From the NCBI GenBank assembly GCA_947184155.2, contig CAMXCT020002373.1, forward strand, positions 38,383-102,382: 64,000 nucleotides of DNA. Reading direction: 5' to 3'. Positions 7,251 to 51,771 of this stretch are shown here, one piece after another. How positions within the stretch are numbered: the stretch's first letter is position 1; each line of letters starts with the position of its first letter. The DNA comes from Cladocopium goreaui (lineage: Eukaryota > Sar > Dinophyceae > Suessiales > Symbiodiniaceae). A program made the translations under genes and the position numbers. The notes beneath the pieces are model-generated. The model saw only the letters and a program-made list of their open reading frames with translations. It ran no database searches and was not told the origin of the DNA.

Positions 7251-7370
7251 AAGGCGTTCGGAACCGTCTCGGTACGGAGTAACACCGTCACAAGCGGCAC
7301 AAAGGGGGAAAATCACCCCGAAGTGGCGGTCAAGGTGGGCAAAAAGAAGTCCCTGGAAGGCAGAAAAGAT
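7251..7370 (+). CDS. candidate exon, lysine-rich
   Basis: The exon would start after 'cttcaagcacag' and reads KAFGTVSVRSNTVTSGTKG followed by HPEVAVKVGKKKSLEGRKDG. It is a GC-rich island in AT-rich sequence, with an AG acceptor in place. A decayed MITE-1 copy (about 7,376-7,510) begins directly after it. No domain is recognised. The alternative frame stops early. Confidence 0.4.
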
Positions 7371-7375
7371 GGAAA

Positions 7376-7510
7376 ACCTTTGGTTAAACTGACATAACTA
7401 TGGAAAATCACCCTTTTTAATGGGTAAATATGGAAAATCACAATTTTTAATGGTAAAATCAACTATTTCTACGGCCATTTTCAAGTTCGCAAAGTGTTAA
7501 CTTACCATTG
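7376..7510. mobile_element. MITE-1 copy, decayed
   Basis: Ends 'acctttggttaaact' and 'gttaacttaccattggt' enclose the family interior, with 'tggaaaatcac' duplicated internally. It lies immediately downstream of a candidate exon. Confidence 0.55.
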
Positions 7511-24500: not shown

Positions 24501-24511
24501 AGGTAGTATGA

Positions 24512-27261: not shown

Positions 27262-27631
27262 GTCAGAGATTTGCCAGATTGACCGATTTGTGTGGAATAC
27301 CGTGGAAAGCATGATGACCTCTCCACACACATGTCCATCTAATTAACCCACACCTGGTTGATCGAGAGCACACGGACGTCCACACTCATAGCCTGAAAGT
27401 ATTGTCTCGATTAGGGTTCGGCAACTGACATTTTTGTCCGATTTGAAAGGCAAAAGAGTGTGTGAGGCGGTGCGTTTGTCAGTGTTGTCGGGAAACTTCA
27501 TTTTTTCCATTTCAGAAAGGCGTTCATTTGAAGGGTTGCCACTTGCCATTCGTCAGTTTCACTTTGTAGCAGACATTTCTCACTCAATTCGCTTCGTTCC
27601 CAGTGTTTCCTTTCCATCTTTGGTTTGCCAA

Positions 27632-28769: not shown

Positions 28770-28795
28770 ATTGAAGACTATTTCCCTGCTGTCGT

Positions 28796-28863
28796 CAAAA
28801 TCCCCGACAAAGTGTCGTAAAAATCCCCGACAAAGTGTCGTTAAGTTTCCCGACAAATTGTCT
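28796..28863. promoter_or_regulatory. three palindromes CCCGACAAAGTGTCG
   Basis: CGACAAAGTGTCG occurs twice exactly and once as CGACAAATTGTCT, spaced about 27 bp, just downstream of the last ORF. Each is a 5-bp stem with a 3-base loop. Possible roles are a protein-binding site, an RNA 3'-end hairpin series or an element terminus. Confidence 0.5.
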
Positions 28864-29150
28864 TGTTTTGATTAGAGATTGAAGGTGGACTGTCGCGACC
28901 GAAGGGCGGGAAAATGACTTTTGTTTTGGAAATTCATTTGGATGGACTGCTGGTTTTGATTGCCTCCATTCCCTCTCAACCCTTCTGACCCAGCACTTCC
29001 ACCCCGACAGATTTTTGTTTGATGTCATCCTGCCCGACGTGAGGTTCTGACGACATTATCATCACCATCTTTGAGAAGGGGTGGCAACCGGTGCGTTCAA
29101 CCAGAGCATGGAGGGTCAGTCCATCTATAAACCACATCTTTCCATTTATT

Positions 29151-29704: not shown

Positions 29705-29790
29705 CTGAAATAAAATCTACGAGACGCTGAAATAAAATCTATGAGACACTGACATCAAATCTATGAGAAATTCACCGCAACACCAACACA
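29705..29790. repeat. tandem 'aaatctatgaga' motifs at edge of element A
   Basis: (ctga)(c/a)ataaaatctacgagac is repeated three times, then 'ttcaccgcaacaccaacaca'. Similar text occurs at 21,225-21,365. It directly abuts the 3' end of the element A coding region and may be its untranslated or subterminal sequence. Confidence 0.5.
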
Positions 29791-31136
29791 TCTTGTCATC
29801 TTCTCCTCAGCATGCTGGATCTGATGAACTGCATGGTCTGATAAATCCTTGGCTCTGAAGAACTGGGAATTCCTTGTCATGTTGGCTATGGCACCTAATG
29901 CTGCTGCACTTTTGTGATCTTTCAACTTCTTCAATCTCTCTGATGCTTTGGTATGTGCATCTTCCTGCTTTTTCTTCAAAGATGCTGCTTGTTTCTCAGT
30001 CTCATCCTTGGCCTTCTTCAGCTAATCAAACTCTCCCAGCAATGCCTTCTGAAGCTTCTGCAGCTTGATCTTCCAATCACTCTGCAGCTGGTCTGGCCAG
30101 CCTCTGCTGGCTGGACCTGATGTGCTTTTGCATGCCCCCTGCTCCATGTAAGCAATGACAAACGGCCACAATCTGCATCATTTTGCTTGATGCGATTGCA
30201 TCGCTGGAGCTGGACTTGATCTTTCTCCACTGAATCAAACAAGCTGATCAAAGCAACTGCTCTTTGATGGCAATCTTTGTGCAAGGTGCCCAAAGTCTCA
30301 TAGTATCTCCAGCTTGATGAATCTTTCACAAGCAATGTCCAATGTGGAGGAGTGCGGCCCTGGATTGGGCAAAGGAGCATCTCCACACCTGATGCAAAGC
30401 TCAAAATGCTTGCCTGGACATTCTGAAATGCTGAAATGTTTAATCTTCACTGGTCAAAGGGGTGCTCAATCTGGCCACCAAAGCTGGATCCAGCATCTGC
30501 ACCTCATCAGGAATCTTCAGGCTGTATCTCATCAACTCCCAAGCTGCAACTAAATGCTCATCTTCTAAATACCCATTTGCTCCAATGGGCTGCAACTGCA
30601 ATGAGTACTCGACAAAGGGCTGGGGGAAACAAGCCATGGCTTCCAAAATCCTTTGCATCACTGCTCTGCTCAAGGAGTTGAACTGCTTATGTTGCACTGG
30701 CTTCTTCCACTCTGCTCTTTCTTCCTCAATGTGGCTTGTGCCGCAGCTGATGGTGCCAGTGGCTGTGAAGACAGTGGCCTTGTGCTCATTGATGCTGCTC
30801 AATGCCCCTGTCTTTCCAAAAGATTTGGGCCCAGCCTGCTCATCTGTGATTCTTACCTCTAGGCCCATCAAAGGATGTTCTGATGGTGGTGGCAATGGTG
30901 GCTTCTCTTCATCTGCATGCTCTGTATGCTGCATGTCTTTCTTCATACTGACCAGCAGCTTTTTACCAACTCCATCAGAACCTTTCTTCATGCTGCCCTT
31001 CTTCAGAAGCTTGGCCTTTGCTGATGGTTTAGTCTTCAAACTCGCTTTTGCCTTTGCTGATGGTTTTTTCTGTGATGCTTTTCTGTTTTGCCAACCTTTT
31101 TTCCCGAGAGCGTCTGAGCGCAGGGTTCTTCCAATA
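29761..31136 (-). pseudogene. element A: Ulp1/C48-like cysteine peptidase, decayed
   Basis: On the minus strand a Lys-rich start (KKPSAKAKASLKTKPSAKAK) leads to a globular region, 'DEHLVAAWELMRYSLK', then the peptidase core: 'LLCPIQGRTPPHWTLLVK' (catalytic His), 'WRYYETLGTL' (Glu where Asp is usual), 'CNRIKQNDADCG' (oxyanion Gln and nucleophile Cys). One base is out of frame after the Cys-Gly; the +2 frame continues 'LWPFVIAYMEQGA', matching the sister protein at 43.2 kb. A TAG at about 30,019 interrupts the frame before a coiled-coil tail (DETEKQAASLKKKQEDAHTK; ASERLKKLKDHKSAAALG). These match the Ulp1/SENP family that cleaves SUMO-type modifiers. One frameshift, one stop and a missing start point to decay. 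Confidence 0.7.
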
Positions 31137-31148
31137 GTGGGGGTCTGT

Positions 31149-31552
31149 AAAACATCTTCTCATCTTCACATCTTCTCATCTTCCCATCTTCTCATCTTCA
31201 CATCTTCTTATCCTCACATCTTCTCCTCATCCCTCATCTTCTCATCTTCACATCTTCTCATCCTCACATCTTCTCATCTTCACACCTTCTCATCTTCACA
31301 TCTTCTCATCTTCACATCTTCTCATCTTCACATCTTCTCATCCTCGCATCTTCTCCTCATCTTCTCATCTTCACATCTTCTCATCCCCTCATCTTCTCAT
31401 CTTCACATCTTCTCATCTTCACATCTTCTCACATCTTCTCACATCTTCTCATCTTCTTATCTTCTCACATCTTCTCACATCTTCTCATCTTCACATCTTC
31501 TCACATCTTCTCACATCTTCTCATCTTCACATCTTCTCATCTCACATCTTCT
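31149..31552. repeat. 'tcttcacatcttctca' minisatellite inside element A
   Basis: About 400 bp of 8/16-bp units tcttca-catcttctca, ending in a (cctcttg)n tract at 31,552-31,620. The (HIFSSSHL)n ORF on + is a translation artefact. Confidence 0.9.
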
Positions 31553-31686
31553 CCTCTTGCCCTCTTGCCCTCTTGCCCTCTTGCCCTCTTGTCCTCTTGC
31601 CCTCTTGCCCTCTTGCCCTCTCCTTCTTTTCTATTTCTCTTTTGAAGGCGGGAGCAGGGGCAGTGCCAACGAGACGGCACGAAACG

Positions 31687-31973
31687 CAACCCTTTCGCAC
31701 GAAATGAGGGTCGATCGTCAAAAACTGAGGAAAAATTGCGATTTTACTTGTGCCGGAGCAACCCTTTCGCACGAAATGAGGGTCGATCGTCAAAACTGAG
31801 GAAAAATTGCGATTTGACTTGTGCCGGAGCAACCCTTTCGCACGAAATGAGGGTCGATCGTCAAAAACTGAGGAAAAATTGCGATTTTACTTGTGCCGGA
31901 GCAACCCTTTCGCACGAAATGAGGGTCGATCGTCAAAACTGAGGAAAAATTGCGATTTGACTTGTGCCGGACT
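31687..31973. repeat. 72 bp repeat, four copies in two alternating types
   Basis: 'caaccctttcgcacgaaatg' starts at 31,687, 31,759, 31,830 and 31,902. Copies 1 and 3 read 'caaaaactgagg...gattttact' and copies 2 and 4 read 'caaaactgagg...gatttgact', so the higher-order unit is a dimer of 143 bp. Confidence 0.9.
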
Positions 31974-31974
31974 T

Positions 31975-33945
31975 GTCTGTGTGTAAAAGCGCCTGTGTGT
32001 AAAAAGCGTCTGTGTGTAAAAGCGTCTGTGTGTAAAAGCGTCTGTGTGTAAAAGCTTCTGTGTGTAAAAGCCTCTGTGTGTAAACGGGTCTGTGTGTAAA
32101 AGCGTCTGTGTGTAAAAGCGTCTGTGTGTAAAGTGTTTTGTGTAAAAGTGTTTTTGTGTGTGAAAACGTCTGTGTGTAAAAGCGCTTTCGTGTGTGTAAA
32201 AAAGCTTCTGGTTTGTAAGAGCGTCTCCGTGGTGTCACAATCCTCATGCTTTTGAAAAAAGCACACTCGTGTGGTACAGAAGCGATCCTTTGTGTGTTCA
32301 AAGCGTCTGTTTGTAACAGCGTCTGTGCTGTACCAGTGTTTGCTGTGTCACCACCGACTGTTTTGCTGTAACCAGTGTTCTGTGTGTCAACAGGGCGATG
32401 TGTGTCAATTGTTTTTTGTGTTTCCAAGCGTCTGTTGTGTAAAAAGCGTCTGTGTGGAAAAAAAGCGTCTGTGTGTAAAAGCGTCTTGTTTTTTTTGTGG
32501 TTGAGCAAGCGTCTGTGTTAAACAGTGTTTGTGTAAAAGTTTTCTGTTGTAAAGCCGTTTGTGTGTAAAAGCTTCCTGTGTGTAAAACGTCTGGTGTGTG
32601 TAAAAGTCTTGTTGTAATAGCGTCTGTGTGTAGAAAGCGTCTGTGTGTAAAAGCGTCTGTGTGTAAAAGCGTCTGTGTGTAAAAGTGTTTGTATGTAAAA
32701 GTGTTTGTGTAAAAGTGTTTGTGTGTAAAAGCGTCTCGTGTGTAAAAGTCTCTGTGTGTAAAAGCGTCTGTGTGTAAAAAGCGTCTGTGTGTCAAAACGT
32801 CTGTGTGTAAAAGCGTCTGTGTGTAAAAGTGTTTGTGTAAAAGTGTTTGTGTAAAAGCGTCTGTGTGTAAAAGCTTCTGTGTGTAAAAAGCGTCTGTGTG
32901 TAAAAGCGTCTGTGTGTAAAAGCGTCTGTGTGTAAAAGTGTTTGTGTGTAAAAGTGTTTGTGTGTAAAAGTGTTTGTGTGTAAAAGCGTCTGTGTGCAAA
33001 AGCGTCTGTGTGCAAAAGGTTGTGTGTGTAAAAGCCTCTGTGTGTAAAAGCGTCTGTGTGTAAAAGCGTCTGTGTGAAAAGCGTCTGTGTGTAAAAGCTT
33101 GTGTGTGTAAAAGCCTCTGTGTGTAAAAGCGTCTGTGTGTAAAAGCGTCTGTGTGTCAAAGCGTCTGTGTGTAAAAGCGTCTGTGTGTAAAAGCGTCTGT
33201 GTGTAAAAGACTGTGTGTAAAAGCGTCTGTGTGTAAAAGCGTCTGTGTGTAAACCCACATCGATATAAAGGAGCCCACGGGAGTCCGCGTCTTGTGTGTG
33301 TAAAGCCAGTCTCCAACTGTGTGTGTAAACAAAGCGTCTGTGTGACACAAGTGGCCTCTTTGTGTACAACAGCGTCGTGTGTACAAACCATAAAGCGGCC
33401 TTCTCAGTGAAAGTCTCTGTGTGTAAAAGCAAAGCGTGTGTAAAAGCGTCTGTGTGTCAAAGCGTCTGTCTGTAACAGTCTCTGCGTGTGAAAGTGTTTT
33501 GTGTAAAAGCGTGTGTGTAAAAGCGTCTGTGTGTGTGTGTAAAAGTCTCTGTGTGTAAAAGCGTCTTTGTGTAAAAGTCTCTGCGGGTAAAAGCCTCTGT
33601 GTGTAAAAGTCTCTGTGTGTAAAAAGCCTGTGTGTAAAAAGTGTCTGTGTGTAAAAGCGTCTGTGTGTAAAAGGGTCTGTGTGTAAAAAAAGCTTCTGTG
33701 TGTAAAAGCGCCTGTGTGTAAAAAGCGTCTGTGTGTAAAAGCGTCTGTGTGTAAAAGTGTCTGTGTGTAAAAGCGTCTTTGTGTAAAAGCTTCTGTGTGT
33801 AAAAGCGTCTGTGTGTGTAAAAGTCTCTGTGTGTAAAAAGCGTCTGTAAAAGCGTCTGTGTGTAAAAGCGTCTGTGTGTAAAAGGGTCTGTGTGTAAATG
33901 TGTTTGTGTGTCAAAGCGTCTGTGTGTAAAAAGCGTGTCTCCATA
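31975..33945. repeat. ~2 kb array of 16 bp TGTGTGTAAAAGCGTC
   Basis: Well over 100 imperfect units, some truncated (tgtgtaaaagtgtt), all on one strand. The long minus-strand ORFs (LHTDAFTHRRFYTQT...) have no gene meaning. Base order is strictly directional. A short non-repeat patch sits at about 32,215-32,440 and another at 33,250-33,330. The array lies exactly between the two coding halves of element A. Confidence 0.95.
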
Positions 33946-33949
33946 GTAA

Positions 33950-35640
33950 CAACAGAAGACTCTGCTCCTCTACGCTCTCGGGCCATCCGTCGTCTAGTCT
34001 TGTTGTTGCTTCTGGCCTGGATTTGGCCTAATGCTTCTTGCTTGCTCATGGAGGGCAGCAGCTTCTTGCTCAACCATTTCCTTGCAGCTGGTCTCACTAG
34101 ACTTCTCTTTTGCATATCTTCTCTGGCCCTTGCATTCTTGATCACAAGGCTGCCAAATGTCTCATCCAACATCTTCCTTCTATAAAACTCTTTTCCCAAT
34201 GAAAGGCTCAATTAAAAAAAACAAGCTGTTGTTGCATGGCAGGAGGAGCTCATCGCTGATGTCTGTGAAATCAATTGCTTGATTCTTCTTTGCTGCCTCC
34301 ACCTCATGCTTGCTTTCATGTCTCAGATCCTCATCTGCTACCTTCTCTGCATGCTCCTTCTCATCTTCTGCTGGAACTTGATGCTTTTCTGCTTCTCCAC
34401 CCTGAACTGGATGAGCATTGCTCCAGCTGATGAGGTCTGTGATGCATGTTGCATCTTGGCTCAAGCTGAAGTCTGGTATTGATGGAACTCCATCCTGCAG
34501 CCATGAATACCTCTCTCCAGCCAGTCTGATGGGATCCTCTTGGTTCCCATCTTGCATGCCCACTCCTCATCTGTGATCTTCTTCAACTCACCTGATGGGC
34601 TGCACCTGCATGCCACTAAACCATTTTTGATGGCTGCCGCCACCACCCAATTGGTTTTCTCATTCATGGCCTCCATGTAGTCTTGGCTGGATACTGCTGC
34701 TCTGATGCTGACATGACCTAAGATGTGAGCTGCTGCTATGTTGCAAATGTGCTCTGCCTATGCTGTCTCAGCTGCAAAATTGTGGCAGCAAATGAATCTT
34801 TGATTGCAATTCCTGCTGGCTCCTGCATGGCTTGCTCCATTGCAGTCCACTTCATCAACGCTCCATCACACAGGCTGAGTCATGATGGAGATCTTCTCGA
34901 AGAGGCCTGGAAACTCATTCCTGAGCTTCACAAAGGGCTTCATGAATTTTTAGACCTTGCCTCCCTTATGCTGCACCTTACTGTCTCCAATCAGGAACTC
35001 CTCTGTCTCTATCCACTTGCATTGCTCATCTACATTGCCCAATCGTGCATGCTGGTCTCCAAAGACAAGCAAGCCTTTGGCCACTTCCCCTGCCAAGGGA
35101 CCTTCACCAACAATGTTGCAAATCTTCTGTCTGGCTTCATAGGTCAGCCTGTACTTCTCATCATAGCTGTTTGCAGACATCGTCCTCATGCCTGCAACTT
35201 TTTTCAGACCTGTCTCATCAGAGGCTGTGATGATTTGCATTGCATTGCTTTCCACTGTTGCTTGAGCTGATGCAATTTCCTCTGACCTCTCTGAAATTCA
35301 CTGGATCTTGGTACCTGCATCCTGCAAGCTCATGCTCTGCAAAAATGACCTTCTGACTCACAGCTTTGCCCCAAATGGGAACTTGATCAGACATAGTGAT
35401 GCAAAGGTTCTTCCTTGCCTTAATCACTTCTGCTGGATTGGAAACCAACCCTGATTCCTCCAAAGCTGCCTCGCTAGCTGCTCCCATCAACCAGTGAGCC
35501 CTGACTTTTGACTCAATGGGAGACAGCTTATGTGTCAGCTCCTTCTGTATGTAGGATGCTGATATCCATCCTACAAGCTTGTCTGTGTAGTTCCTGTCAG
35601 TGATGCCAGCAGTGTGGCCGCTGCTGAGGGCCAGTCTCAG
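33950..35640 (-). pseudogene. element A: putative transposase-like protein, decayed
   Basis: Read 5'-3' on the minus strand: GITDRNYTDKLVGWISASYI, 'SPIESKVRAHWLMGAASEAA', 'NLCITMSDQVPIWGKAVSQK', 'DEKYRLTYEARQKICNIVGE', 'AKGLLVFGDQHARLGNVDEQ', then after a TAG at 34,950 'KFMKPFVKLRNEFPGLFEKI', and in other frames 'DGALMKWTAMEQAMQEPAG', 'MNEKTNWVVAAAIKNGL', an acidic stretch and a basic end (KTRRRMARERRG). The SDQVPIW, YEARQ and LLVFGDQ...RLGN blocks match the 46.8-48.6 kb protein of element B in the same order. The acidic residues in SDQVPIW and FGDQH could be metal ligands of a DDE-type transposase, but this is inferred. Several frame changes and stops indicate decay. The 5' end is cut at about 35,640, next to LINE sequence. 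Confidence 0.55.
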
Positions 35641-35699: not shown

Positions 35700-37595
35700 G
35701 CGTATCAGTTGTCCCCCATTTCAAGGTGCTCCGAACGGGAGCGAACGGGAGCGATGAGGGGTTTACGTGCTGACCGCAAGGGTGCCAATCCAGTGCTCCA
35801 TCTGTCAAGGTAAACCTTTTTGGCTGGACGGTCCTCCAGACCATTAGAGATGCCCGTGAGCTTGGGGGCCACGGTGCCTGATGGACTTCCCAAGAATGGC
35901 CCCACGGCAGTCTTGGTCTCTCGTTTGCAGCGGGTGGGTTGGACTTTGGGACCTGGGACCTCATGGACTTATCCAAGATCGGCTCGGGTCTTTCAGTCTC
36001 TTTGCTTCGTCCTGGGATGAATTGTGTGTCCGTTTTCGGTTGGCTTGGGCTCGTGTTCTCCATGACGCAGCTGGGCATCGCCCGACGTTTGAAGGGTTGG
36101 AAGAAGTTGATGCGGTGGCCACGCAAAAGAGCTTGAGCCAATTTAGTGTAGTCGACCCGGTTTACTTGAGGTGCCACCTTGACGGTACACTGTTTGTGCA
36201 GAATGGCCGTGCCAAGTTTGATCAAGCTGTGGATGATCGATGTCCATGGTGTGGGGCCAAAGGTGGGATTGAACATCGGGCCTGGACTTGCCCGCATTGT
36301 GAGCCCTGTAGGAGCCACCCTTTCCTCGTCTCAGCAACATGGCTGGGGTTTGGTCCTTGCTGAATGGGAAGTATTTGTGGACTTTCTTCTAAGGGATCAT
36401 GGATTTCGCAGGTTGTCCCCGGTAGGTCTCCCCCCAAGAGCCTCCAACTGGTGTGACCTTTTCGTTGATGGAACTTGTGCTCATCCAGTAGAGCCTCAGC
36501 TGCGATATGGTGCGTGGGCTGTGACTTGGGCGAGTGGTGGACCAGGTAACCTTGACAACAAAGTGGTGCTTGCAGGTCATTTGCAAGGGTTGCGTCAGTC
36601 CGCATTTAAGGCTGAAATGGCGGCAGTTTTTCATGCTTTGCAGTGGGCTGCAGAGAGCTGCCTGAAAGTCAGAATTTGGTGCAACTGTCAAAGCGTGGTT
36701 CACGGGTTCGGAAGTTGCTGCGGGGTGGCAAAGTACATCCCAATCGAGCCCATTCTGGGGTGTGGCAAAGTATTGCGACAGTTTTGCTGCAGGCTGACTT
36801 TGAAGTGCAAATCATCAAGGTGGTTTCTCATTGCCAGATTAGTGCTGCTACAACACCGGAGGAAAAGTTGGCTTCTTGGCATAACCAACTCACTGACCAA
36901 GCGGCGACGTATGTCAATGAAAAGCGTGAACCAGAGTTTTGGCAAGCTTGGAAACAACTGGAGACTGCACTGACTGACCGCAGGCGATTACATGTAGCCC
37001 TACTGCTGATGCTCCTCAAACAATCACGTTTGGCGACCCAGGATCAACCTCGAAGTCGTCCGGTGCAACAGGTGGCTCATCCAGGAGTGACGGTTGCGAT
37101 GCCAGCCGTACCTGCAGAATGGACCATGCCAACCAAGCTGTTCAAACGTTATGGACGTGAGAATGTTGAGGCGGTACATCGTTGGTGGGCTGCATGTGGC
37201 CGTCCACCGATTTCTGGCCGAGAGGAAATGCAAATGGTAGCAGGTTTGCAACTCTTTTTAGATTTCACTTGGCATACCAACCATGCCGGACCATGTCTCC
37301 ATCGAAAGCGATGGTACTCACAGCCAGAGGGCCTGCCAGCAGGATGTGTTGTCATTTGGGGGACTGGGTTAAGGTATTTTTGTTGCTTTGGAAAGCTTAT
37401 ATGAGGTGTCAGGGTGTCAACATCCCCCACAAAATGCCCAAGCCGGTTGGGATTTCCATTGGCAAGTGGTTAGTAACTTACTACTTGCGTTGGCTTGATT
37501 GCAAAGCCAAGGAAGTGGATGAACATATGCTGCGGCAATTAGGCAGGCAGGCGGTGTCCCAAAGGGATGTTAGTAGTGTCACACCTGACAGGTAG
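35700..37595 (+). pseudogene. LINE (non-LTR retrotransposon) 3' fragment: zinc knuckle and RNase H
   Basis: Frames shift at least four times along one coherent protein. In order: GANPVLHLSR (with a TAA), 'GLPKNGPTAVLVSRLQRVGW', 'LFASSWDELCVRFRLAWARV', a knuckle 'CPWCGAKGGIEHRAWTCPHC', then a type I RNase H: 'NWCDLFVDGTCAHP' (first Asp), 'FKAEMAAVFHALQWAAES' (Glu), 'VRIWCNCQSVVHGF' (Asn at the position normally Asp), 'IIKVVSHCQI' (His) and 'WHNQLTDQAATYVNEKRE' (Asn/Asp). A Trp-rich tail ends at TAG 37,593. The reverse transcriptase part is absent. Such LINE proteins with C-terminal RNase H are frequent in dinoflagellate genomes. Frameshifts and the Asp-to-Asn change make it non-functional. Confidence 0.8.
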
Positions 37596-41773: not shown

Positions 41774-41787
41774 TTATATAGTTATTA

Positions 41788-41830
41788 ATCCCTTCCTCCT
41801 AATACTAAACGCCCCCCTAATACTAAAAAC
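41788..41830. repeat. left terminal inverted repeat of element B
   Basis: Two nested motifs, CCTCCTAATACTAAAC and CCCCCCTAATACTAAAAAC, pair with 51,628-51,671. The first 24 bases match exactly. Confidence 0.85.
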
Positions 41831-41935
41831 AGGCATCCATCTCCAATTTCCGAAAATTTCAGTTTGGCCAATTTGACTTTTAATTGATCCCCTTTAAAAA
41901 ACAATTCAAAAATCAACCTACCATTTGTGGGTTCT

Positions 41936-41987
41936 CCCCCCTAATACTAAAAACTAATTCATCCCGGGGTGTTTAGTATTAGGGGGG
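41936..41987. repeat. left subterminal hairpin of element B
   Basis: CCCCCCTAATACTAAAAAC and GTTTAGTATTAGGGGGG face each other across 16 bases. The right end has the matching structure at 51,599-51,650, so both termini repeat the same core several times. Confidence 0.8.
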
Positions 41988-42114
41988 CTAGTCCTACTCC
42001 CCAAATCCAAGCTGCCTGGCTGGTCTAGCTGCCTGCATGTTTTGCTGACACCACGCTGTCTGGCTGCCTGAAAGCCACCCCTCATGCCTTGCTGCCTGCA
42101 AGGTCTTTCTGAGC

Positions 42115-42209
42115 TGGCTGGAGTCTTGAATTTTGAAGATCCCATAAACACCTATGTTAAGGGTTTCCCTTAATTTTAGGGGGTTAAAAAAAAATTCAAG
42201 ACTCCAGCC
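42115..42209 (-). other. candidate introner-like intron 1 (GC-AG, inverted repeat ends)
   Basis: GGCTGGAGTCTTGAATTTT (42,116-42,134) is perfectly mirrored at 42,191-42,209. On the minus strand the segment can be read as an intron starting GCTGGAGTC and ending GACTCCAG, with AT-rich inside and GC-rich coding-like flanks. Symmetrical ends that also serve as splice sites are the hallmark of introner elements described in dinoflagellates. Confidence 0.55.
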
Positions 42210-42294
42210 ACCGTACTTCCTGGCTGTACTTCCTGGCTGTACTTCTTGGCTGTCTAGCTGCCTACGCATCCTTAGCTGGCTGCCTTTCTGTCTG

Positions 42295-42414
42295 AGCTGG
42301 CTAGAATCTTTAATTTATAATTGAATCCCAGAAATTTAATTGATTATGGTTATGTTGTAAAGGTTTTAGGAGTAATTAATGAATAACAATCCCCATTAAA
42401 GATTCTAGCCAGCT
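42295..42414 (-). other. candidate introner-like intron 2
   Basis: AGCTGGCTAGAATCTTTAAT (42,295-42,314) is perfectly mirrored at 42,395-42,414. Read on the minus strand, GCTAGAATC...GATTCTAG gives GC-AG boundaries. The interior has only A/T-rich text and no ORF. Confidence 0.55.
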
Positions 42415-42484
42415 TTCCATGCCGCTTGCCTGGAGCTCACTGTCTGGCTGAGCTCCATGCTTTGCCAGGTTCTGTCTGAGGGCT

Positions 42485-42599
42485 GGCTGGAATCTTGAAT
42501 TTATATTTCCCATTAAAACAACAGCAACTATTGGTAATTATTTAGAAGGTGACCCATGTAATTAAGAAATTACTTTACTAATTATTCAAGATTCCAGCC
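42485..42599 (-). other. candidate introner-like intron 3
   Basis: GGCTGGAATCTTGAAT (42,485-42,500) is perfectly mirrored at 42,584-42,599, with GC-AG boundaries as in its two neighbours. All three share the terminal consensus GCTGGARTCTT. The intervening 60-190 bp pieces are Gln/Ala/Ser-rich on the minus strand and could be short exons. Confidence 0.55.
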
Positions 42600-42948
42600 T
42601 GCCCCTCTGTCTCCTTGCTCCTCTGGCTGTCTAGCAAGGAGGACCTGCCTGTCTGGCTTTACTGATCCAGCTGCCTTTCACGACTGCCATCCAGTCCTGC
42701 CAACTCTCTGTCTGCTCTTTGTGCCTGTCTACGTCTGCCTGCATGCATAGACAGCCAGCTGTCCTGGGAGAGTGCTGTCGAGATAAAGATGGAGGGGTTT
42801 GTGTTGGTGTAAATATATATATATATATTTGTTTTTTTTATTTATTTATTTGTCAATGTCAAGTAATTAGTTAAAATAGGAGGTGGATGTAGGAGGAGAT
42901 ATGTGTATAACTAATGGGATGAAAGTAAAAATGGATTTACTGGGGGTT

Positions 42949-43114
42949 CTAAATTCTTTGCTGTCTGTAGGAGTGAGAATATTGCTGCCTAGCTGCTTGT
43001 CGCAGCTCCATACAACACACCTTCTTCCCCAGCAGGTGCATTTCTGTCTGTATGTCTTGCAAGGCTGCCAAAGCTGCCTGCAAGAGCTGCGTCTGCTGTG
43101 CCTTGGCTGCACAA
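42949..43114 (-). CDS. element B gene, candidate last exon: coiled coil
   Basis: After 'tttttttttggtggatccag' the frame reads CAAKAQQTQLLQAALAALQD, IQTEMHLLGKKVCCMELRQA and ARQQYSHSYRQQRI before TAG. Heptad-like Leu/Ala spacing suggests a coiled coil. Joining a GT donor at 43,214 of the peptidase exon to this acceptor keeps the frame. Element A also has a coiled-coil tail after its peptidase. Further exons could lie downstream among the three small introns. Confidence 0.5.
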
Positions 43115-43214
43115 CTGGATCCACCAAAAAAAAATGCTAAAACAGCTACCTGTTGTGCTAATCGCTGCCTGATGATTGGAGATCTGACTTGCCTGGCTGT
43201 AAATCACTGGCTAC

Positions 43215-44409
43215 CTAGTGAAAGATGGATGGCTTTTCTGCTTTCTTGCTGCTTTCTTGGCCTCCAAAGCCTTTGCTGCTTTCTTGGCCTCCAAAGCCTT
43301 TGCTGCCTTGTCTAAAGACTTCTGCTTCAGCACTGCTTCTTGCCAGGACTGAAGCTTCTGGCTCAGCTCCCCAACTGTCTGCCATGTGGACTGACTACAT
43401 CCTAGGAACTCTCTGGCTTGTCTTTCCATGTACTGAAGGCACCAGAGGCCACAACTGAAACCGTCTGACTGGTGGAAACGGTTGCATGGCACTGGCAGCT
43501 CTGTCTCTGTCTGCAAACAGACTTGCAGCACTGTGCTAGCTGCTGCTTTGGCTGTTTCTGGCTGCATCTTGAGTGTGTCGAAGTACTGGACCTCTGGTTG
43601 TTCTTCTTTGCTGCTGCCTGCCTTGCTCAAAGAAAGCAGTGTCCAGTGCTGTGGAGCTGAGCTGTGGATTGGTACCAGCAGCAAAGTCTTGCTGTCTGCC
43701 AGGAAGTCTTCCATGGCTTTGCAAACTGCACCTGTCTCTGCTGCTAGCTTGCTTTGAGCTGGGGTTACCCATCGCACTGCACTGCCTGGCTTCAGTCTGC
43801 TGCTAATCTCTCTCCAGCCTGCCAAGAGCTGATCATCTGTCACCAGCTGGCCGAACTGGTAGAGATCCACTTGCTGCATCCAATCTGCCTGCAAAGACTG
43901 CCTGGCTGCATCCTTGAGCTGCTGTGGAGCCATTGTCTGCCTGGCTGTCTTTGGCAGCAAAGGGCATTCTAGATCTGCCTTGCAAATCCACTGGCTGCCC
44001 TTGCTCGGTATCTGGCAGAGGAGCTGGCTGCCCTTTGCTTTCTCCACTGTCACGACCAAGCCTTGCCAGGCTGCCTTTGCTGTCTCTCCAACAACTCTGC
44101 CTATGGCACCATGCCACTCTGACTCCTCTTCCTCTGCTTTCTCTGCTGCCTCTGCTGTCTTGATTGCTGCTGTCTTCTTGCTCTGCTTTTTCTTCCTTTT
44201 CTGCAAGTGACTGTACTTGAGCTTGGCACTGGGCTTCAACTTTTTGCCTGCTGTCTTGCTGCTGACTGGTCTGACTTGCTCCAATGCCTGCCTCTGTGCT
44301 TTGGAGCCCGCTTTCTGCCTCCACTTCTCAACAAGCTCTTTCTTGGCCTTCTTTCCTTTCTTCCTTCCTCTGGCTTTATCCTTTCTCTTCTGCGAGGCTA
44401 CTTGGCTGA
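43215..44409 (-). CDS. element B: Ulp1/SENP-like (C48) cysteine peptidase exon
   Basis: An intact open frame of about 400 codons. Residues 10-85 are Lys/Arg-rich (nuclear-type). The catalytic core lies at about 240-335: 'LLLVPIHSSAPQHWTLLSLS' with His258, 'VQYFDTLKMQPE' with Asp281, and 'CNRFHQSDGFSCGLWCLQYM' with Gln317 and Cys323. Order and spacing fit Ulp1-family enzymes, which cleave or mature SUMO-like modifiers. A Lys/Ala-rich helical tail (SLDKAAKALEAKKAAKALEA) ends the exon. An AG acceptor at 44,411-44,410 restores the frame left by a GC donor after the transposase exon. The in-track start Met at 44,419 is in intron-like text, so the piece is probably an internal exon rather than a separate gene. 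Confidence 0.75.
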
Positions 44410-44495
44410 CTGCATGCATCCATGGAGTGCTTGGCCTGGCAGAAGGTGTAACTAATTAGCCATGGAGTGGTTTCTTCAAAGATTGGAACCTAGAA

Positions 44496-46790
44496 GATAA
44501 GGACTTTAGAAAGGGAAATGCAAGGAGGTGAAGTAGTTTTTAGTATTAAGGTCTGGTGCTTAGTATTAGGGAGAACCTGCCTGGAGCTAGCCTGGCAGCA
44601 CAGAAGCAGAAGTTTTAGTAAAGACTTTAGAAAGGGAAATGCAAGGAGGTGAAGTAGTTTTTAGTATTAAGGTCTGGTGCTTAGTATTAGGGAGAACCTG
44701 CCTGGAGCTAGGCTGGCAGCACAGAAGCAGAAGTTTTAGTAAAGACTTTAGAAAGGGAAATGGAAGGAGGTGAAGTAGTTTTTAGTATTAAGGTCTGGTG
44801 CTTAGTATTAGGGAGAACCTGCCTGGAGCTAGGCTGGCAGCACAGAAGCAGCAGTTTTAGTAAAAACTTTAGAAAGGGAAATGGAAGGAGGTGAAGTAGT
44901 TTTTAGTATTAAGGTCTGGTGCTTAGTATTAGGGAGAACCTGCCTGGAGCTAGCCTGGCAGCACAGAAGCAGCAGTTTTAGTAAAGTCTTTAGAAAGGGA
45001 AATGGAAGGAGGTGAAGTAGTTTTTTTTAGTATTAAGGTCTGGTGCTTAGTATTAGGGAGAACCTGCCTGGAGCTAGCCTGGCAGCACAGAAGCAGAAGT
45101 TTTAGTAAAGACTTTAGAAAGGGAAATGCAAGGAGGTGAAGTAGTTTTTAGTATTAAGGTCTGGTGCTTAGTATTAGGGAGAACCTGCCTGGAGCTAGGC
45201 TGGCAGCACAGAAGCAGCAGTTTTAGTAAGGACTTTAGAAAGGGACATGGAAGGAGGTGAAGTAGTTTTTAGTATTAAGGTCTGGTGCTTAGTATTAGGG
45301 AGAACCTGCCTGGAGCTAGCCTGGCAGCACAGAAGCAGCAGTTTTAGTAAGGACTTTAGAAAGGGAAATGGAAGGAGGTGAAGTAGTTTTTAGTATTAAG
45401 GTCTGGTGCTTAGTATTAGGGAGAACCTGCCTGGAGCTAGGCCTGGCAGCACAGAAGCAGCAGTTTTAGTAAGGACTTTAGAAAGGGAAATGGAAGGAGG
45501 TGAAGTAGTTTTTAGTATTAAGGTCTGGTGCTTAGTATTAGGGAGAACCTGCCTGGAGCTAGCTTGGCAGCACAGAAGCAGCAGTTTTAGGAAGGACTTT
45601 AGAAAGGGAAATGGAAGGAGGTGAAGTAGTTTTTAGTATTAAGGTCTGGTGCTTAGTATTAGGGAGAACCTGCCTGGAGCAAGCTTGGCAGCACAGAAGC
45701 AGCAGTTTTAGTAAAGACTTTAGAAAGGGAAATGGAAGGAGGTGAAGTAGTTTTTAGTATTAAGGTCTGGTGCTTACTATTAGGGAGAACCTGCCTGGAG
45801 CTAGCCTGGCAGCACAGAAGCAGCAGTTTTAGTAAGGACTTTAGAAAGGGAAATGGAAGGAGGTGAAGTAGTTTTTAGTATTAAGTTCTGGTGCTTAGTA
45901 TTAGGGAGAACCTGCCTGGAGCTAGGCTGGCAGCACAGAAGCAGCAGTTTTAGTAAGGACTTTAGAAAGGGAAATGGAAGGAGGTGAAGTAGTTTTTAGT
46001 ATTAAGGTCTGGTGCTTAGTATTAGGGAGAACCTGCCTGGAGCTAGCCTGGCAGCACAGAAGCAGAAGTTTTAGTAAAGACTTTAGAAAGGGAAATGGAA
46101 GGAGGTGAAGTAGTTTTTAGTATTAAGGTCTGGTGCTTAGTATTAGGGAGAACCTGCCTGGAGCTAGGCTGGCGAAGCACAGAAGCAGCATTTTTTCGTC
46201 CGCTTAGAAAGGGAAATTGGAAGGAGGGAAGTCGTTTTTCTTATTAAGGTCTTGTGCTTTCTTCTTAGGTAGAACCTCCTGGAGCTAGGCTGGCAGCACC
46301 GACTCCTCACGTTTTAGTAAGGACTTTTAAATTGGACATGGAAGGAGGTGAAGTAAGTTTTTTTAGTATTCAGGTCTGGTTCTAGTAATTATGGTAGTAA
46401 CCTCCCTGGAGCTAGCCTGGCAGCACATAAGCATCCGTTTTAAAGTAAAGTTCTTTATAAAGGGAAGAAAATGGAAGGAGTGAAAAATTATTTTTTTCTT
46501 CTTGTTTCGGTGCTTCTTCTTCGTGAGAACCTGCCTGGAGCTAGGCTGGCAGCACAGAAGCAGCAGTTTTAGTAAGGACTTTAGAAAGGGAAATGGAAGG
46601 AGGTGAAGTAGTTTTTAGTATTAAGGTCTGGTGCTTAGTATTAGGGAGAACCTGCCTGGAGCTAGCCTGGCAGCACAGAAGCAGAAGTTTTAGTAAAGAC
46701 TTTAGAAAGGGAAATGGAAGGAGGTGAAGTAGTTTTTAGTATTAAGGTCTGGTGCTTAGTATTAGGGAGAACCTGCCTGGAGCTAAGATG
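44496..46790. repeat. array 1: ~121 bp unit carrying TIR-like motifs, ~19 copies
   Basis: Each unit reads GTTTTTAGTATTAAGGTCTG, then GTGCTTAGTATTAGGGAGAA, CCTGCCTGGAGCTAGCCTGG, and 'agcagttttagtaaagactt' ... 'aaggaggtgaagta'. The two TTAGTATTA(A/G)GG cores and their spacing match the terminal repeats of element B. The copies are very similar except for a degraded patch at about 46,170-46,510. The array fills the interval between the transposase and peptidase exons and is most simply an intron. Confidence 0.95.
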
Positions 46791-46818
46791 AAATAGGTGA
46801 AGTCAGTAATTAATCAGC

Positions 46819-48572
46819 TGTCTCCCTGCCTCACTGTTGGATGCTGCAGCAACTCTTCCACTGCCAGCTGTTCTGCCTGGCTCATCGCAAAATCCGCTGG
46901 CATGTCAACGAAAAAGCCTGTCTGCACTCCATGCTGGCTGGAGAACAGGTAAGAGCCTTCATACTCTGGCTGTGGCTGCTGGCGTGCCCTGACTCGCTGA
47001 TGTTTTCCAATCTGCAGTGGCTGCCATAGACCAGCAAAATGGAAGGCATCACTCGACCCACTGGCTTCTTGTCTGGCTGAAAGTATTCTTCTACCGCCTG
47101 CCTGGCGACAAAAGAAACTCGCCATCTAGGCGCCTGCCCTGGACTTCTGGCTGCTGTCTCAACAGGCTGCTCTGGCTCTCCAAGCTCCTCTTCTGCTGCA
47201 ACCATCTGTTGCTCTGCTGCTTCTCCAGCTGCTTCCTCCTTCAACTGCTCTGCCTGCTTCTTCCTGGCTCGCTTTCTGACCCTCTGCTGCAGGGCCCGCT
47301 CCTGTCTCACTGTGCTGACCAGCATCTTGCCTGGAGGAGGCTTCAGCCAGACAGGAATCTGGTCACTGAAAGTCAGCACTGTTTGCTTCCTGTTGACAAA
47401 CCAAGCCTCTCTGTCTCTCACTGGAAGGTCTTCCTGCACAACTGGCTGAGCTGCCTTGTAAAGCTGACTGTCGTAGTGCCTCCAAGCTGCCTCCATTCTC
47501 TTTCTCAACTCCTCCTTGCTGATGTTTTGAGTCTGCTGGCAGCTTCTCTCTCGCAGGCCTGCTCTGGCTGCTAGCTTCGTGGCCTCTTTATCCCGCTGCT
47601 TCTTCTTGGTCTGCAGTGTCTTCAGCTTCTGTCTCCATGCCTGGAGCTCCTGGAGCTTCTCTGCTGACAACTGCTCCTCTCCCTCTCTGTGCTGTATGGA
47701 CTGCTGCAGCCTGTACTCATAGTCCCTGACTAGGTCTGTGAGACTCAGCAGATGTTGCTGGCTCTCTTCATACTGAGCCCACAAGGCTGTGGCCATCCAA
47801 ATCACTCTGCATCTGTCTGGGCGACCTAGCTGCTTGCCTGCTCCAGCCACTCGACTGCCTTGGGCCTTGCTGGTCCGCTTTTCCATGCTTAAGTGGCTGC
47901 CTCTTCTTCTCAAACCTTGCTTGCCTAGCTGTCTCTGGCTGACAAACTCTGTCATCTGAGCCATTGTGTCTGTCTTCTCCAAGTTTCTGACTGCTGTCGT
48001 GCTCAAGCCGTATTTCGATCCTATGATCTGTCTGGCTTTGGTCTTGCTCAAGCCTGGCTGCTGGCAAAGCTCCACTAGTTCTGCGTGGAGCTGCAACTTG
48101 GTTTGTGCTGTTGGCTCAGCTCGATGCTTTCTGACTCCAACTGCTGGCTTTCCATGCTTCCTCCCTGAACCTTTGGGCCTGCCTCCCTTCCTCTTCGATG
48201 GTGGCAGAATTACTGCTGCACTGTCCTCAGCTGACTCTAAACTGACTAGAGCTTGCTGCTGTGCTGGACTGAGAGGCTGCACTTCTTGCCTGGCTATCTT
48301 CTCACTAGAAGAACCAAACATGTAATCCAAACGATAGAACTTGGTGACTGAGCTACCTGGACTTGAGGACTGTCTCTTCTGCCCTCTCTCTGGGGTAGCA
48401 GCTGCCTGCCTCAATTCGTTTGACAAGCTTCTCCTGACTGACACACTCTCTGCCTGTCCTTCCTCCTCCTGGCCATCCTGGCTCTGCACCTTCCCATCGC
48501 TCTTCATCACACTGGCTGCCAGTGCTCTACTTTCTGACTGACTCGAGCAGAAGGACTGGAAATGAAACAAAT
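46819..48572 (-). CDS. element B: putative transposase exon (AT-hook, HTH, acidic motif)
   Basis: An open frame of 574 codons ends at 46,882. A second frame takes over between about 47,000 and 46,960 and ends at the GC donor near 46,818 (SYLFSSQHGVQTGFFVDMPA; AEQLAVEELLQHPTV). Residue landmarks: AT-hook-like GRPKGSGRK at 142-150, a helix-turn-helix-like 'LSKTKARQIIGSKYGLSTTA' at 186-205, coiled coil at about 310-345, 'VLTFSDQIPVWLKPPPGK' with Asp415, a Lys/Glu coiled coil to about 490, 'RWRVSFVARQAVEEYFQP', and 'ILLVYGSHCRLENI'. Element A has homologous blocks in the same order (SDQVPIW; RLTYEARQ; LLVFGDQ..RLGN). DNA-binding features plus spaced acidic residues suggest a DDE-type transposase, but the full triad is not established and the second Asp of A is Ser here. 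The frame change may be a small intron or a mutation. Confidence 0.6.
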
Positions 48573-48639
48573 CTGGCAGAAAACAAACAAGCAAACACAC
48601 ACACACACATAATTATATATATGTAATAAAATATATAAG

Positions 48640-48760
48640 TATATATATATATACCCACGTATTTACTATTCTATCTAACTCATTATCTGTCTAATTACCT
48701 ATCTGTCTACCTTTCTATCCATCCAAGTTTCTGCACAACTGATTCCAATTCAACTGCCCT
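48640..48760. repeat. (TCTA)n patch plus 'ctgcacaactgattccaat' repeat, copy 1
   Basis: A tctatctgtctaatt-type microsatellite followed by 'ctgcacaactgattccaat(t)caactgc'. The same pair occurs at 50,665-50,860 on the other side of array 2, so array 2 is flanked by a direct repeat. Confidence 0.7.
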
Positions 48761-48805
48761 GTGGCTTGCCAGCTGGTGAAGTAATTATATAATTAATTAG
48801 TTTTT

Positions 48806-50668
48806 AATATTAAGGTCTGGTGCTTAGTATTAGGGAGAACCTGCCTGGAGCTAGCTTGGCAGCAGAGAAGCAGCAGTTTTGGTAAGGACTTTAGAAAGGG
48901 AAATGGAAGGAGGTGAAGTAGTTTTTGGTATTAAGGTCTGGTGCTTAGTATTAGGGAAAACCTGCCTGGAGCTAGCCTGGCAGCACAGAAGCAGCAGTCT
49001 TAATTAGTAAGGACTTTAGAAAGGGAAATGCAAGGAGGTGAAGTAGTTTTTAGTATTAAGGTCTGGTGCTTAGTATTAGGGAGAACCTGCCTGGAGCTAG
49101 GCTGGCAGCACAGAAGCAGAAGTTTTAGTAAAGACTTTAGAAAGGGAAATGGAAGGAGGTGAAGTAGTTTTTAGTATTAAGGTCTGGTGCTTAGTATTAG
49201 GGAGAACCTGCCTGGAGCTAGGCTGGCAGCAGAGAAGCAGCAGTTTTGGTAAGGACTTTAGAAAGGGAAATGGAAGGAGGTGAAGTAGTTTTTAGTATTA
49301 AGGTCTGGTGCTTAGTATTAGGGAGAACCTGCCTGGAGCTAGCCTGGCAGCACAGAAGCAGCAGTTTTAGTAAAGTCTTTAGAAAGGGAAATGGAAGGAG
49401 GTGAAGTAGTTTTTAGTATTAAGGTCTGGTGCTTTGTATTAGGGAGAACCTGCCTGGAGCTAGCCTGGCAGCACAGAAGCAGCAGTTTTAGTAAGGACTT
49501 TAGAAAGGGAAATGGAAGGAGGTGAGGTAGTTTTTAATATTAAGGTCTGGTGCTTACTATTAGGGAGAACCTGCCTGGAGCTAGCCTGGCAGCACGGAAG
49601 CAGCAGTTTTAGAAAGGACTTTAGAAGGGAAATGGAAGGAGGTGAAGTAGTTTTTAGTATTAAGGTCTGGTGCTTAGTATTAGGGAGAACCTGCCTGGAG
49701 CTAGCTTGGCAGCACAGAAGCAGCAGTTTTAGTGAAGACTTTAGAAAGGGAAATGGAAGGAGGTGAAGTAGTTTTTAGTATTAAGGTCTGGTGCTTACTA
49801 TTAGGGAGAACCTGCCTGGAGCAAGCTTGGCAGCACAGAAGCAGCAGTTTTAGTAAGGACTTAGAAAGGAAATGGAAGGAGGGAAGTAGTTTTTAGTATT
49901 AAGGTCTGGTGCTTACTATTAGGGAGAACCTGCCTGGAGCTAGCTTGGCAGCACAGAAGCAGCAGTTTTAGTAAAGACTTTAGAAAGGGAAATGGAAGGA
50001 GGTGAAGTAGTTTTTAGTATTAAGGTTTGGTGCTTACTATTAGGGAGAACCTGCCTGGAGCTAGCTTGGCAGCACAGAAGCAGTTTGAGAAAGGACTTTA
50101 GAAAGGGAAATGGAAGGAGGTGAAGTAGTTTTTAGTATTAAGGTCTGGTGCTTAGTATTAGGGAGAACCTGCCTGGAGCTAGCCTGGCAGCACAGAAGCA
50201 GAAGTTTTAGTAAAGTCTTTAGAAAGGGAAATGGAAGGAGGTGAAGTAATTAGTTTTTAGTATTAAGGTCTGGTGCTTAGTATTAGGGAGAACCTGCCTG
50301 GAGCTAGCCTGGCAGCACAGAAGCAGCAGTTTTAGTAAGGACTTTAGAAAGGGAAATGGAAGGAGGTGAAGTAGTTTTTAATATTAAGGTCTGGTGCTTA
50401 GTATTAGGGAGAACCTGCCTGGAGCTGGCCTGGCAGCACAGAAGCAGCAGTTTTAGTAAGGACTTTAGAAAGGTAAATGCAAGGAGATGAAGTAGTTTTT
50501 AGCATTAAGGTCTGGTGCTTAGTATTAGGGAGAACCTGCCTGGAGCTAGCCTGGCAGCACAGAAGCAGCAGTTTTAGTAAGAACTTTAATTAGAAAGGTA
50601 AATGCAAGGAGATGAAGTAGTTTTTAATTAGTACTAAGGTCTGGTGCTTAGTATTGGGGGGACCTGCC
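48806..50668. repeat. array 2: same ~121 bp unit, ~15 copies
   Basis: Same unit and orientation as array 1. Variants include a 4-bp 'aatt' insertion in several copies (for example at 50,240 and 50,588). It lies between the first coding exon and the putative transposase exon. Confidence 0.95.
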
Positions 50669-50749
50669 TGTATTCTATCTATCTGTCTATCTAATTGTCT
50701 ATCTAATTATCTATCTAATTATCTATCTATCTATCCATCTAATTATCTA

Positions 50750-50785
<36 letters not shown>

Positions 50786-50860
50786 ACTAATTATCTATCC
50801 ATCTATCTATCTATCCATCCATGAAACTGGCTGCACAACTGATTCCAATGCAACTGCTCT
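50665..50860. repeat. (TCTA)n patch plus 'ctgcacaactgattccaat' repeat, copy 2
   Basis: About 150 bp of atctatctaatt units, then 'ctgcacaactgattccaatg' and 'caactgctct'. It is a partner of the 48,640-48,760 block. Confidence 0.75.
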
Positions 50861-50876
50861 AATTAATTAATTCAAC

Positions 50877-51142
50877 TGTCTGTCTGCTGCCAAGCTGCTG
50901 CCTCTGCTGCCAGGGCTGCCAAGGCTGCTTGCTGAGCTGCCTGCACTTGCTGGTCTGGCTGCGCTCCCTCAGGCTGAGTGACTGGCTGCTGGGCAGCTGG
51001 CTCAGCAACTGCTTGGACTGGCTGCGCGGCTGCCATTACTGCCCGTCTGTTTGCCCTTACTACTGACTGGCTTTGTTCTGCCTCGCTTTTTTTTGCTTGA
51101 ACCAGCACACAATGGAGGCTAGCTGTCTGTGGACCTGACCCG
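50877..51142 (-). CDS. element B gene, candidate 5' exon, Ala/Gln-rich
   Basis: After the pyrimidine-rich acceptor 'ccagttttttttccag' the frame reads SGSGPQTASLHCVLVQAKKS, then EAEQSQSVVRANRRAVMAAA and a long Ala/Gln/Pro low-complexity stretch (QQVQAAQQAALAALAAEAAA). It runs to a GT at 50,876, and joining to an AG at 48,573 keeps the frame into the transposase exon. An upstream exon with the true start should exist between 51,150 and 51,600 but is not identified. Confidence 0.5.
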
Positions 51143-51149
51143 CTGGAAA

Positions 51150-51590
51150 AAAAACTGGACAATTATAAGGATCTTTTTACAATGAATAATTAATCCCCTC
51201 CTCCTATATAATCCTTAAAAACATAAATTCAACATTGGTTCCCACTTTGGTTCCCTAATATTATGGATTCTAATTATCTGCCAAATAAATCTTATTGCCA
51301 GCATAATTATGAAAACCCTCATGATTACTAATTACATATACACATATAATTAATTGATTGTACATCTATTTACTTATTTGTAGCCATCATGAAGCCCTCA
51401 TGAATAATTACTACATAATTATACACGAATGAATTGATTATATATATATATACACTTATAATTATATACATAATTATGCATCTAATTAATTAATTAGAAT
51501 TACTTAGAAATCTGTATAAAATGAATAATCCCTTCCTCCATTCTAATGCATGAATAACTAATTAACATGACTTCGATTTGGTTCCCTAAT
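51150..51590. other. AT-rich 5' region of element B
   Basis: It contains repeated fragments such as 'ttaatcccctcctccta', 'aatcccttcctcc' and 'ggttccctaat', which echo the terminal repeat. These may be decayed internal copies of the end sequence. No exon was recognised. Confidence 0.4.
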
Positions 51591-51598
51591 AATAAATA

Positions 51599-51650
51599 CC
51601 CCCCTAATACTAAAAACTACCTGCCGTGTTTTGTATTAGGGGGGGGGGGT
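51599..51650. repeat. right subterminal hairpin of element B
   Basis: CCCCCCTAATACTAAAAAC faces GTTTTGTATTAGGGGGG across ten bases. It mirrors the 41,936-41,987 structure. Confidence 0.8.
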
Positions 51651-51671
51651 TTAGTATTAGGAGGAAGGGAT
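51628..51671. repeat. right terminal inverted repeat of element B
   Basis: Ends in TTTAGTATTAGGAGGAAGGGAT, followed by TATTA. It is the partner of 41,788-41,830. Confidence 0.85.
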
Positions 51672-51771
51672 TATTATATATATATATATTTATCTATCTA
51701 TTTATGAAACGGCCGACCACTATATCCATCCAACATATTTCACATCCAAGCGCCCAAAACTGTCCTTAAAT

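Follow-up and report, generated by a model that had tools for sequence, protein, structure and literature searches.

A TA-flanked transposon copy in the dinoflagellate Cladocopium goreaui and the probable union of a DDE_1-type transposase with a C48 peptidase in its intact relatives

A stretch of 64,000 nucleotides from Cladocopium goreaui (contig CAMXCT020002373.1 of assembly GCA_947184155.2, here C2373:38383-102382; hereafter the window) carries a 9,884-bp element bounded by exact inverted ends. Its minus-strand coding blocks, pointed out in a preliminary description of this DNA, are present and comprise a transposase exon and a C48 peptidase exon with a predicted, repeat-filled intron between them. 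The element is very probably a young copy, shortened by internal deletions, of a dinoflagellate transposon of the cut-and-paste kind, the intact copies of which would encode a DDE_1-type transposase and a C48 peptidase as one polyprotein. It is collinear with a 12,417-bp copy on another contig (C308), in blocks of 96.8-99.7% identity and at about 93-95% through the tandem arrays. The genome searched was the host assembly of 1,165,616,438 bases in 6,202 contigs, in which the 21-base dinoflagellate spliced leader occurs at 81 + 91 places (reversed control, 0), marking the host as a dinoflagellate. The features of the element, in window coordinates, are as follows.

41786..41787, no strand: left TA target duplication, inside TATTA 41783-41787 (TA on both sides in 21/22 copies)
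41788..51671, no strand: entire element of 9,884 bp, with internal deletions and intact ends (exact 20-bp inverted ends; C308 alignment)
41788..41829, plus: left terminal inverted repeat (arm alignment)
43238..43270, no strand: 33 bp in place of 727 bp of C308 (1480-2206; C308 alignment)
43271..44409, minus: C48 peptidase exon, 3' truncated here (profile of eight relatives; invariant H, D, C)
44410..46818, minus: predicted GC-AG intron between transposase and peptidase exons (open C308 join; intronless C891)
44498..46785, no strand: array of 18.8 tandem 121-bp units, in which TIR-like TTAGTATTA motifs occur (repeat search)
46819..48507, minus: transposase exon, defective; first catalytic Asp codon 47362-47364 (SDQIPVW) kept (frame and C308 comparison)
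46983..46984, no strand: junction of a 730-bp deletion (C308 element 6744-7473), with D2, D3 and the frame lost (C308 alignment)
47968..48186, minus: presumed DNA-binding part (by eye: AT-hook-like GGRPKG 48169-48186, helix-turn-helix-like 47968-48102)
48798..50670, no strand: second 121-bp tandem array, 15.4 copies (repeat search)
51630..51671, minus: right terminal inverted repeat (arm alignment)
51672..51673, no strand: right TA target duplication, inside TATTA 51672-51676 (flanks of the window copy)

The terminal inverted repeats (TIRs) stand as first described: the 20-base ends at 41788-41807 (plus) and 51652-51671 (minus) are exact inverted copies and the only two matches to the end in the window with at most three mismatches (0.01 expected). 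With their flanks, the inverted arms reach 55 nt at 84% complementarity (41775-41829 and 51630-51684). A genome search for other paired ends, proposed in the preliminary description, found the exact 20-mer at 428 forward and 438 reverse places in the whole assembly and its reversed control at none (0 + 0). Among 100 listed of these 866 places, 78 fall into 39 pairs whose ends face one another at up to 16 kb, and the other neighbouring pairs are one in the same orientation and none back to back. Thirty of these 39 pairs span at most 2.1 kb and the remainder 2.4-15 kb.

Comparison of insertion sites, also proposed there, fixed the target duplication. Twenty-two copies were examined, namely 20 short ones taken from the listed pairs (L069-L088), the window copy and the C308 copy, and TA adjoins ATCCC...GGGAT at both flanks in 21 of them. 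Beyond these 2 bp, the flanks agree over 3 bp in no copy (0/22), over 4 bp in L079 and over 5 bp in the window copy only; hence the duplicated target is TA, and the TATTA noted on both sides of the window copy, although truly present, is a chance extension. The flanks of eight of the 22 copies, the window's site lying outside this query, were also rejoined with one TA and searched against the genome. Among the 40 matches listed, 39 span the L076 junction (the best two at 192/192 bases across it) and one spans the L085 junction (98% over 188 bases), with none for the other six sites. Because these rejoined flanks match single-TA sites, the L076 and L085 insertions sit in repeats whose unoccupied copies carry one TA. 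Likewise, three of the six informative copies embedded in arrays favour one TA (L070, L080, and L082).

Open transposase frames of 842-868 codons occur in six near-identical places, against 576 codons in the window copy. As these six are 99.79-99.96% identical over 2,400 bp, their sequences indicate that the element has spread recently. C308 shares with 19 of the 20 short copies a left-end part of about 197-252 bp and a right-end part of 91-131 bp, and the middle of these 19 is absent from C308 and can be aligned from one to another; the short copy L071 is built wholly from C308 ends. The short copies look like non-autonomous elements that may be mobilised in trans. They were also considered as introners, a reading that was set aside, their ends being without GT/AG and their target duplication TA, as against the 4-bp duplications given for Symbiodinium introners in the accessible text of PMC9860276; the introners of Amoebophrya (PMC7789003, likewise in its accessible part) were a further printed case considered. 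A copy at C207:17293-32279 (14,987 bp) has two transposase exons (23607-25235 and 27376-29004) within one end pair.

The window copy is defective. Its segments 46,984-47,100 (99.1% identical to C308) and 46,781-46,983 (99.5%) adjoin here and lie 730 bp apart in C308, a length that is not a multiple of three; this deletion and the 576-codon frame rule out a complete transposase in the window. A possible start codon stands at 48,505-48,507, inside the exon that follows the putative first intron of the preliminary description (50,876 to 48,573), and the presumed DNA-binding part of the window protein has no Pfam match. The coding blocks were originally said to splice in frame, but this does not hold for the window copy: the exon 48,572-46,819 joined to 44,409 onward meets 13-38 stops in all three frames, because the 730-bp deletion breaks the frame. 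The third intron formerly proposed (43,214-43,115) finds no support. The 727-bp C308 stretch contains the last part of the peptidase gene, CxxC...CxxC motif included, the C308 peptidase frame runs to its own stop inside it, and the proposed intron lies where the window copy has lost this gene end. The remaining peptidase exon retains the catalytic codons for H (43646-43648), D (43577-43579), Q (43469-43471), and C (43451-43453).

Splice joins in the window, C308 and C4583 copies were predicted from DNA alone. The GC 46,818 to AG 44,410 splice of the preliminary description is closed in the window copy and open in C308, where it spans a 3,233-bp intron and, with translation begun at the first Met considered within the exon, gives a predicted protein of 1,274 aa; the corresponding intron of C4583 (L044) is 1,068 bp long and likewise GC...AG. 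The claim that transposase and C48 peptidase are joined in one gene is borne out by relatives elsewhere in the genome. Among 52 genome matches to the peptidase, 25 belong to frames that are 1,000 codons long or longer; in 25/25 of these a transposase match on the same contig and strand has equal frame length and phase and lies within the span. The peptidase match covers H270 to C335 in 24 of the 25, the exception being C891, where it is confined to the upstream part. There are thus 24 single-frame loci with transposase and catalytic C48 in one frame of 1,030-1,527 codons, and in the intronless C891 the frame runs from the transposase through the equivalent of the GC-AG junction into the peptidase start region. 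For example, the single frame of C1965 (L091) holds the transposase, a lysine-rich linker, C48 and a C-terminal CSRCRWSSGCLSC, to which the C308 C-terminus, CSKCKYSKTGCLAC, is related. Since both domains share one open frame at 24 loci, a single polyprotein looks ancestral. No TIR was found around the C1965 relative, where the sequence covered reached about 1 kb past the 5' end, and comparison of the 3' flanks of nine relatives found no ends, tandem arrays being common to them. Several transposase-C48 genes share a contig in C6122, C4398, C2946, and C1753 (the peptidase matches of C6122 lie about 15.8 kb apart), which suggests tandem duplication.

The peptidase is, by its sequence, a C48-type domain that keeps H-D-Q-C. 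In eight aligned relatives H, D, G, and C are invariant within HW and CG motifs, and by eye a Q stands just before the catalytic C in 8/8, misaligned in L091. A profile of these eight matched the PDB entries of XopD (1.6e-6), SENP2 (2.1e-3), RickCE (4.1e-3), ChlaDub2 (4.8e-3), and SENP1 (0.013), which from their names we take to include both deSUMOylases and deubiquitinases. Single sequences gave weak Pfam C48 matches in three of the eight (best 0.02), and the window protein alone gave none at E up to 10. The preliminary description had named a Ulp1-type SUMO peptidase; the C48 type stands, and because the profile matches include deubiquitinases, the modifier may be SUMO, ubiquitin, or NEDD8. 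The domain described here agrees with these C48/CE-clan enzymes in local sequence and in the order of the catalytic residues H, D, Q, C; it differs from them in being fused to a transposase.

The transposase is placed by profile comparison. Five diverse members (residue numbering follows L013) share D443 (DQIP.W), G/H and N positions, D626, D649.F651, and QLTD685. In the host genome, DDE_1 (PF03184) gave 150 scored matches among 716 candidates, those listed exceeding the cut-off, and ten of these proteins were aligned into a profile and compared with that of the five members. The two align with Prob 86, E 4.9e-6, and a score of 46.4; controls reached 12.2 (reversed), 17.7 (maximum of 30 shuffles), 20.4 (maximum of 150 more), and 13.5 (unrelated C48 profile). 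Leave-one-out profiles score 37.7-49.7, the L013 and L018 pair alone 30.2, and single members 21.1-35.6. The alignment starts after D1, equates RD.F with the LLxDxAxCH aspartate, and sets T..IQLTDTDFAK.MK against T..LQPCDTH.FA.FK. D626 (QP...VDS) was considered as D2 and rejected, the alignment placing D2 at the RD.F/DAF aspartate; the D2-D3 spacing is 35 residues in 5/5 members, giving D-D-35-D. Alignment with DDE_1 (pogo-type) transposases is therefore well supported at the profile level and agrees with the TA target. The profile search proposed in the preliminary description has in this way qualified its remark that the transposase resembles no named superfamily, which is true of direct Pfam and PDB searches and not of profile comparison. 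Tc1/mariner elements have D2-D3 spacings near 34-41; the TA target and the spacing of 35 agree with this group and do not settle membership. On contigs that include C875, C3718, and C5566, frames of about 300-377 codons with a DDE_1 match follow one another roughly every 2 kb, which resembles a tandem repeat.

Several points weigh against the reading as a DDE_1-type transposon with a fused protease. Direct Pfam and PDB searches of the five members returned no match to DDE_1 or any transposase. The profile probability of 86 is below usual certainty, two of the five members alone (21.1 and 21.5) score barely above the best shuffle (20.4), and DDE_1 was the sole DDE family in the profile-profile comparison, which involved few sequences. 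The right flank of L074 is TC and lacks the TA, and three of the six array-embedded cases, short and AT-rich, match two TA (L069, L075, and L079). The splice joins are predictions. Ends and target duplication were determined for the window family only, which leaves the mobility of the single-frame relatives putative. The function of the protease is putative too, and its profile matches include deubiquitinases.

The strongest competing explanation, possible though the less favoured, is that the element represents its own DDE superfamily with TA targets outside pogo and Tc1/mariner, in which case the likeness to DDE_1 would reflect the RNase H-like core only. The transposase without a direct match speaks for this, as does size: the 12.4 kb and 1,274 aa of C308 and the frames of 1,030-1,527 codons exceed the ranges printed for pogo. 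The accessible text of a survey of that superfamily (PMC7386202) gives TA/TAA/TAAA targets, DD29-56D, lengths of 1.2-5.2 kb, and proteins of 300-977 aa. On the other side, D2 and D3 are both covered by the profile alignment, which shows a T..LQ..DT...FK signature and survives leave-one-out, and the TA target and DD35D fall inside the pogo range. The element shares with the pogo superfamily (Tigger, Fot, and Lemi; DDE_1; the IS630-Tc1-mariner or ITm group) the TA target, DD35D, the DDE_1 profile relation, and short TIRs, and appears to work like a pogo member. It differs in the C-terminal C48 protease and cysteine motif, in lengths of 12.4 kb (C308) and 15.0 kb (C207), both with open transposase frames, in proteins above 1,000 aa, in the lack of a Pfam-detectable DDE_1 or helix-turn-helix (HTH), and in its dinoflagellate host. 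No Pfam DNA-binding motif (HTH_Tnp_Tc5, CENP-B_N, HTH_psq etc.) was found in the five members at E up to 1; the Mover family is also without one by hmmscan (PMC7386202, accessible text). Because its size and protein length exceed the printed range and no Pfam HTH is found, the element is filed outside pogo proper, probably best in a divergent lineage of pogo/ITm-like elements to which a C48 protease is fused, pogo membership being unproven. As far as the accessible text of the 2020 survey goes, alveolates were searched at 1e-100, Chromista matches fell in Stramenopiles and Rhizaria only, and the words 'peptidase', 'protease', and 'ulp1' do not occur (PMC7386202). No description of a pogo-like transposase fused to C48 was found in the literature within reach, most subscription papers being unreachable, and absence from print is not claimed; the relevant terms do occur in PMC2836005 (Ginger) and PMC3212892 (Cryptons), which by title concern other elements.

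It is unlikely that the C48 domain acts on the polyprotein itself, cutting it into transposase and protease, and not on SUMO. Such self-processing would suit a single frame whose parts are separated by a long lysine-rich linker; however, the structurally solved C48 enzymes act on ubiquitin-like modifiers, and any cleavage site in the polyprotein would be putative.

Membership of a family known to carry C48/Ulp1, whether Mutator-like, CACTA, Ginger1 or KDZ, is very improbable. Ulp1 domains do occur in some CACTA and KDZ members, and target lengths are 8-11 bp in Mutator-like elements, which have a MULE transposase, 3 bp in CACTA, and 8 bp in KDZ, unlike the TA found here. Direct Pfam searches of the window protein and the five members matched no Mutator-like, CACTA, Ginger1 or KDZ transposase. 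According to the accessible text of PMC2836005, some Mutator elements contain a Ulp1 domain, and Ginger1 has a Gypsy-integrase-type transposase, 4-bp CCGG/CCGT targets, TGTNR ends, and in some members a C-terminal Ulp1. The element resembles Mutator-like elements in having such a domain within it and Ginger1 in having it C-terminal to a transposase; its TA target and ATCCC ends set it apart from Ginger1. Least probable of all is that the peptidase is a passenger host gene that came to lie between the ends and has nothing to do with the transposase protein, a view for which the separate exons and 2.4-kb repeat-filled intron of the window family could be cited, but which is largely refuted by the 24 single-frame loci, by the uninterrupted junction of the intronless C891, and by a near-identical peptidase in ten other places of the genome plus one fragment.

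The end motif has TTAGTATTA as its core, and both 121-bp arrays contain this core. Together with TAATACTAA it occurs 57 times (53 + 4) in the 9.9-kb element and once (0 + 1) in the remaining 54,116 bases of the window; the relatives have other arrays beside their gene. Within the GC-AG intron, TAATACTAA motifs number 47 in the C308 copy (L089/L090) and 16 in the C4583 copy. Read by eye on the coding strand, the 121-bp unit (44498-46785 and 48798-50670) presents TAATACTAA followed by a pyrimidine-rich stretch and CAG, and so resembles, by the general branch-site consensus, a branch site before a splice acceptor; the TIR core has the same motif. Degenerate left-end motifs lie just inside the right end (AATCCCCTCCTCC at 51192 and AATCCCTTCCTCC at 51527).

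Two further features lie outside the element. A decayed, frameshifted transposase-C48 relative at 29788-35595 on the minus strand, matched by tblastn with L091 (5e-34 and 1e-28), has transposase pieces at 35,595-34,402, arrays at 31,153-33,936, and linker and C48 pieces at 31.1-29.8 kb, in the same transposase-array-peptidase order as in the element; no TIR was found around this relic at 29.8-35.6 kb. A weak RNase H match at 36170-36973 on the plus strand (0.0069, below the cut-off) is perhaps a retroelement remnant. Searches for relatives gave 8 pattern matches in viral contigs and 117 in prokaryote genome contigs, none of which was confirmed.

The preferred reading, an internally deleted copy of a transposon with a DDE_1-C48 polyprotein, implies the following course of events. 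The intact polyprotein would consist, in order, of an N-terminal DNA-binding part, the DDE_1 transposase (D-D-35-D), the lysine-rich linker, C48, and CxxC...CxxC. The transposase would bind the ends and the many TTAGTATTA motifs, cut at TA, and insert at TA; binding to the arrays is suggested by analogy with transposons that carry subterminal repeats. The substrates of the C48 protease may be the transposase or those host chromatin proteins that lie on the element; their loss of SUMO, or of a related modifier, may shield the element against silencing or turnover that depends on it. Intact copies would move the defective ones in trans, among them the window copy and the many of 0.4-2 kb. A wider proposal, rather doubtful as it stands, is that of a whole dinoflagellate superfamily in which a DDE_1-derived transposase is permanently fused to C48 and so brings its own SUMO-like eraser to disarm silencing, the TIR-motif arrays, and in relatives the arrays adjacent to the gene, serving as landing pads that concentrate the polyprotein.

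In many eukaryotes, SUMO-linked silencing probably keeps transposons in check, and a modifier eraser of its own could, if true, explain the large recent spread of the element. The presence of a transposase and a SUMO/ubiquitin-type protease in one chain, kept across strongly diverged families of a single genome, makes counter-silencing directly testable. The repeats of dinoflagellates are largely unclassified, and these organisms gain here a defined transposon family that targets TA, has apparently been active of late, and is represented by hundreds of end copies.

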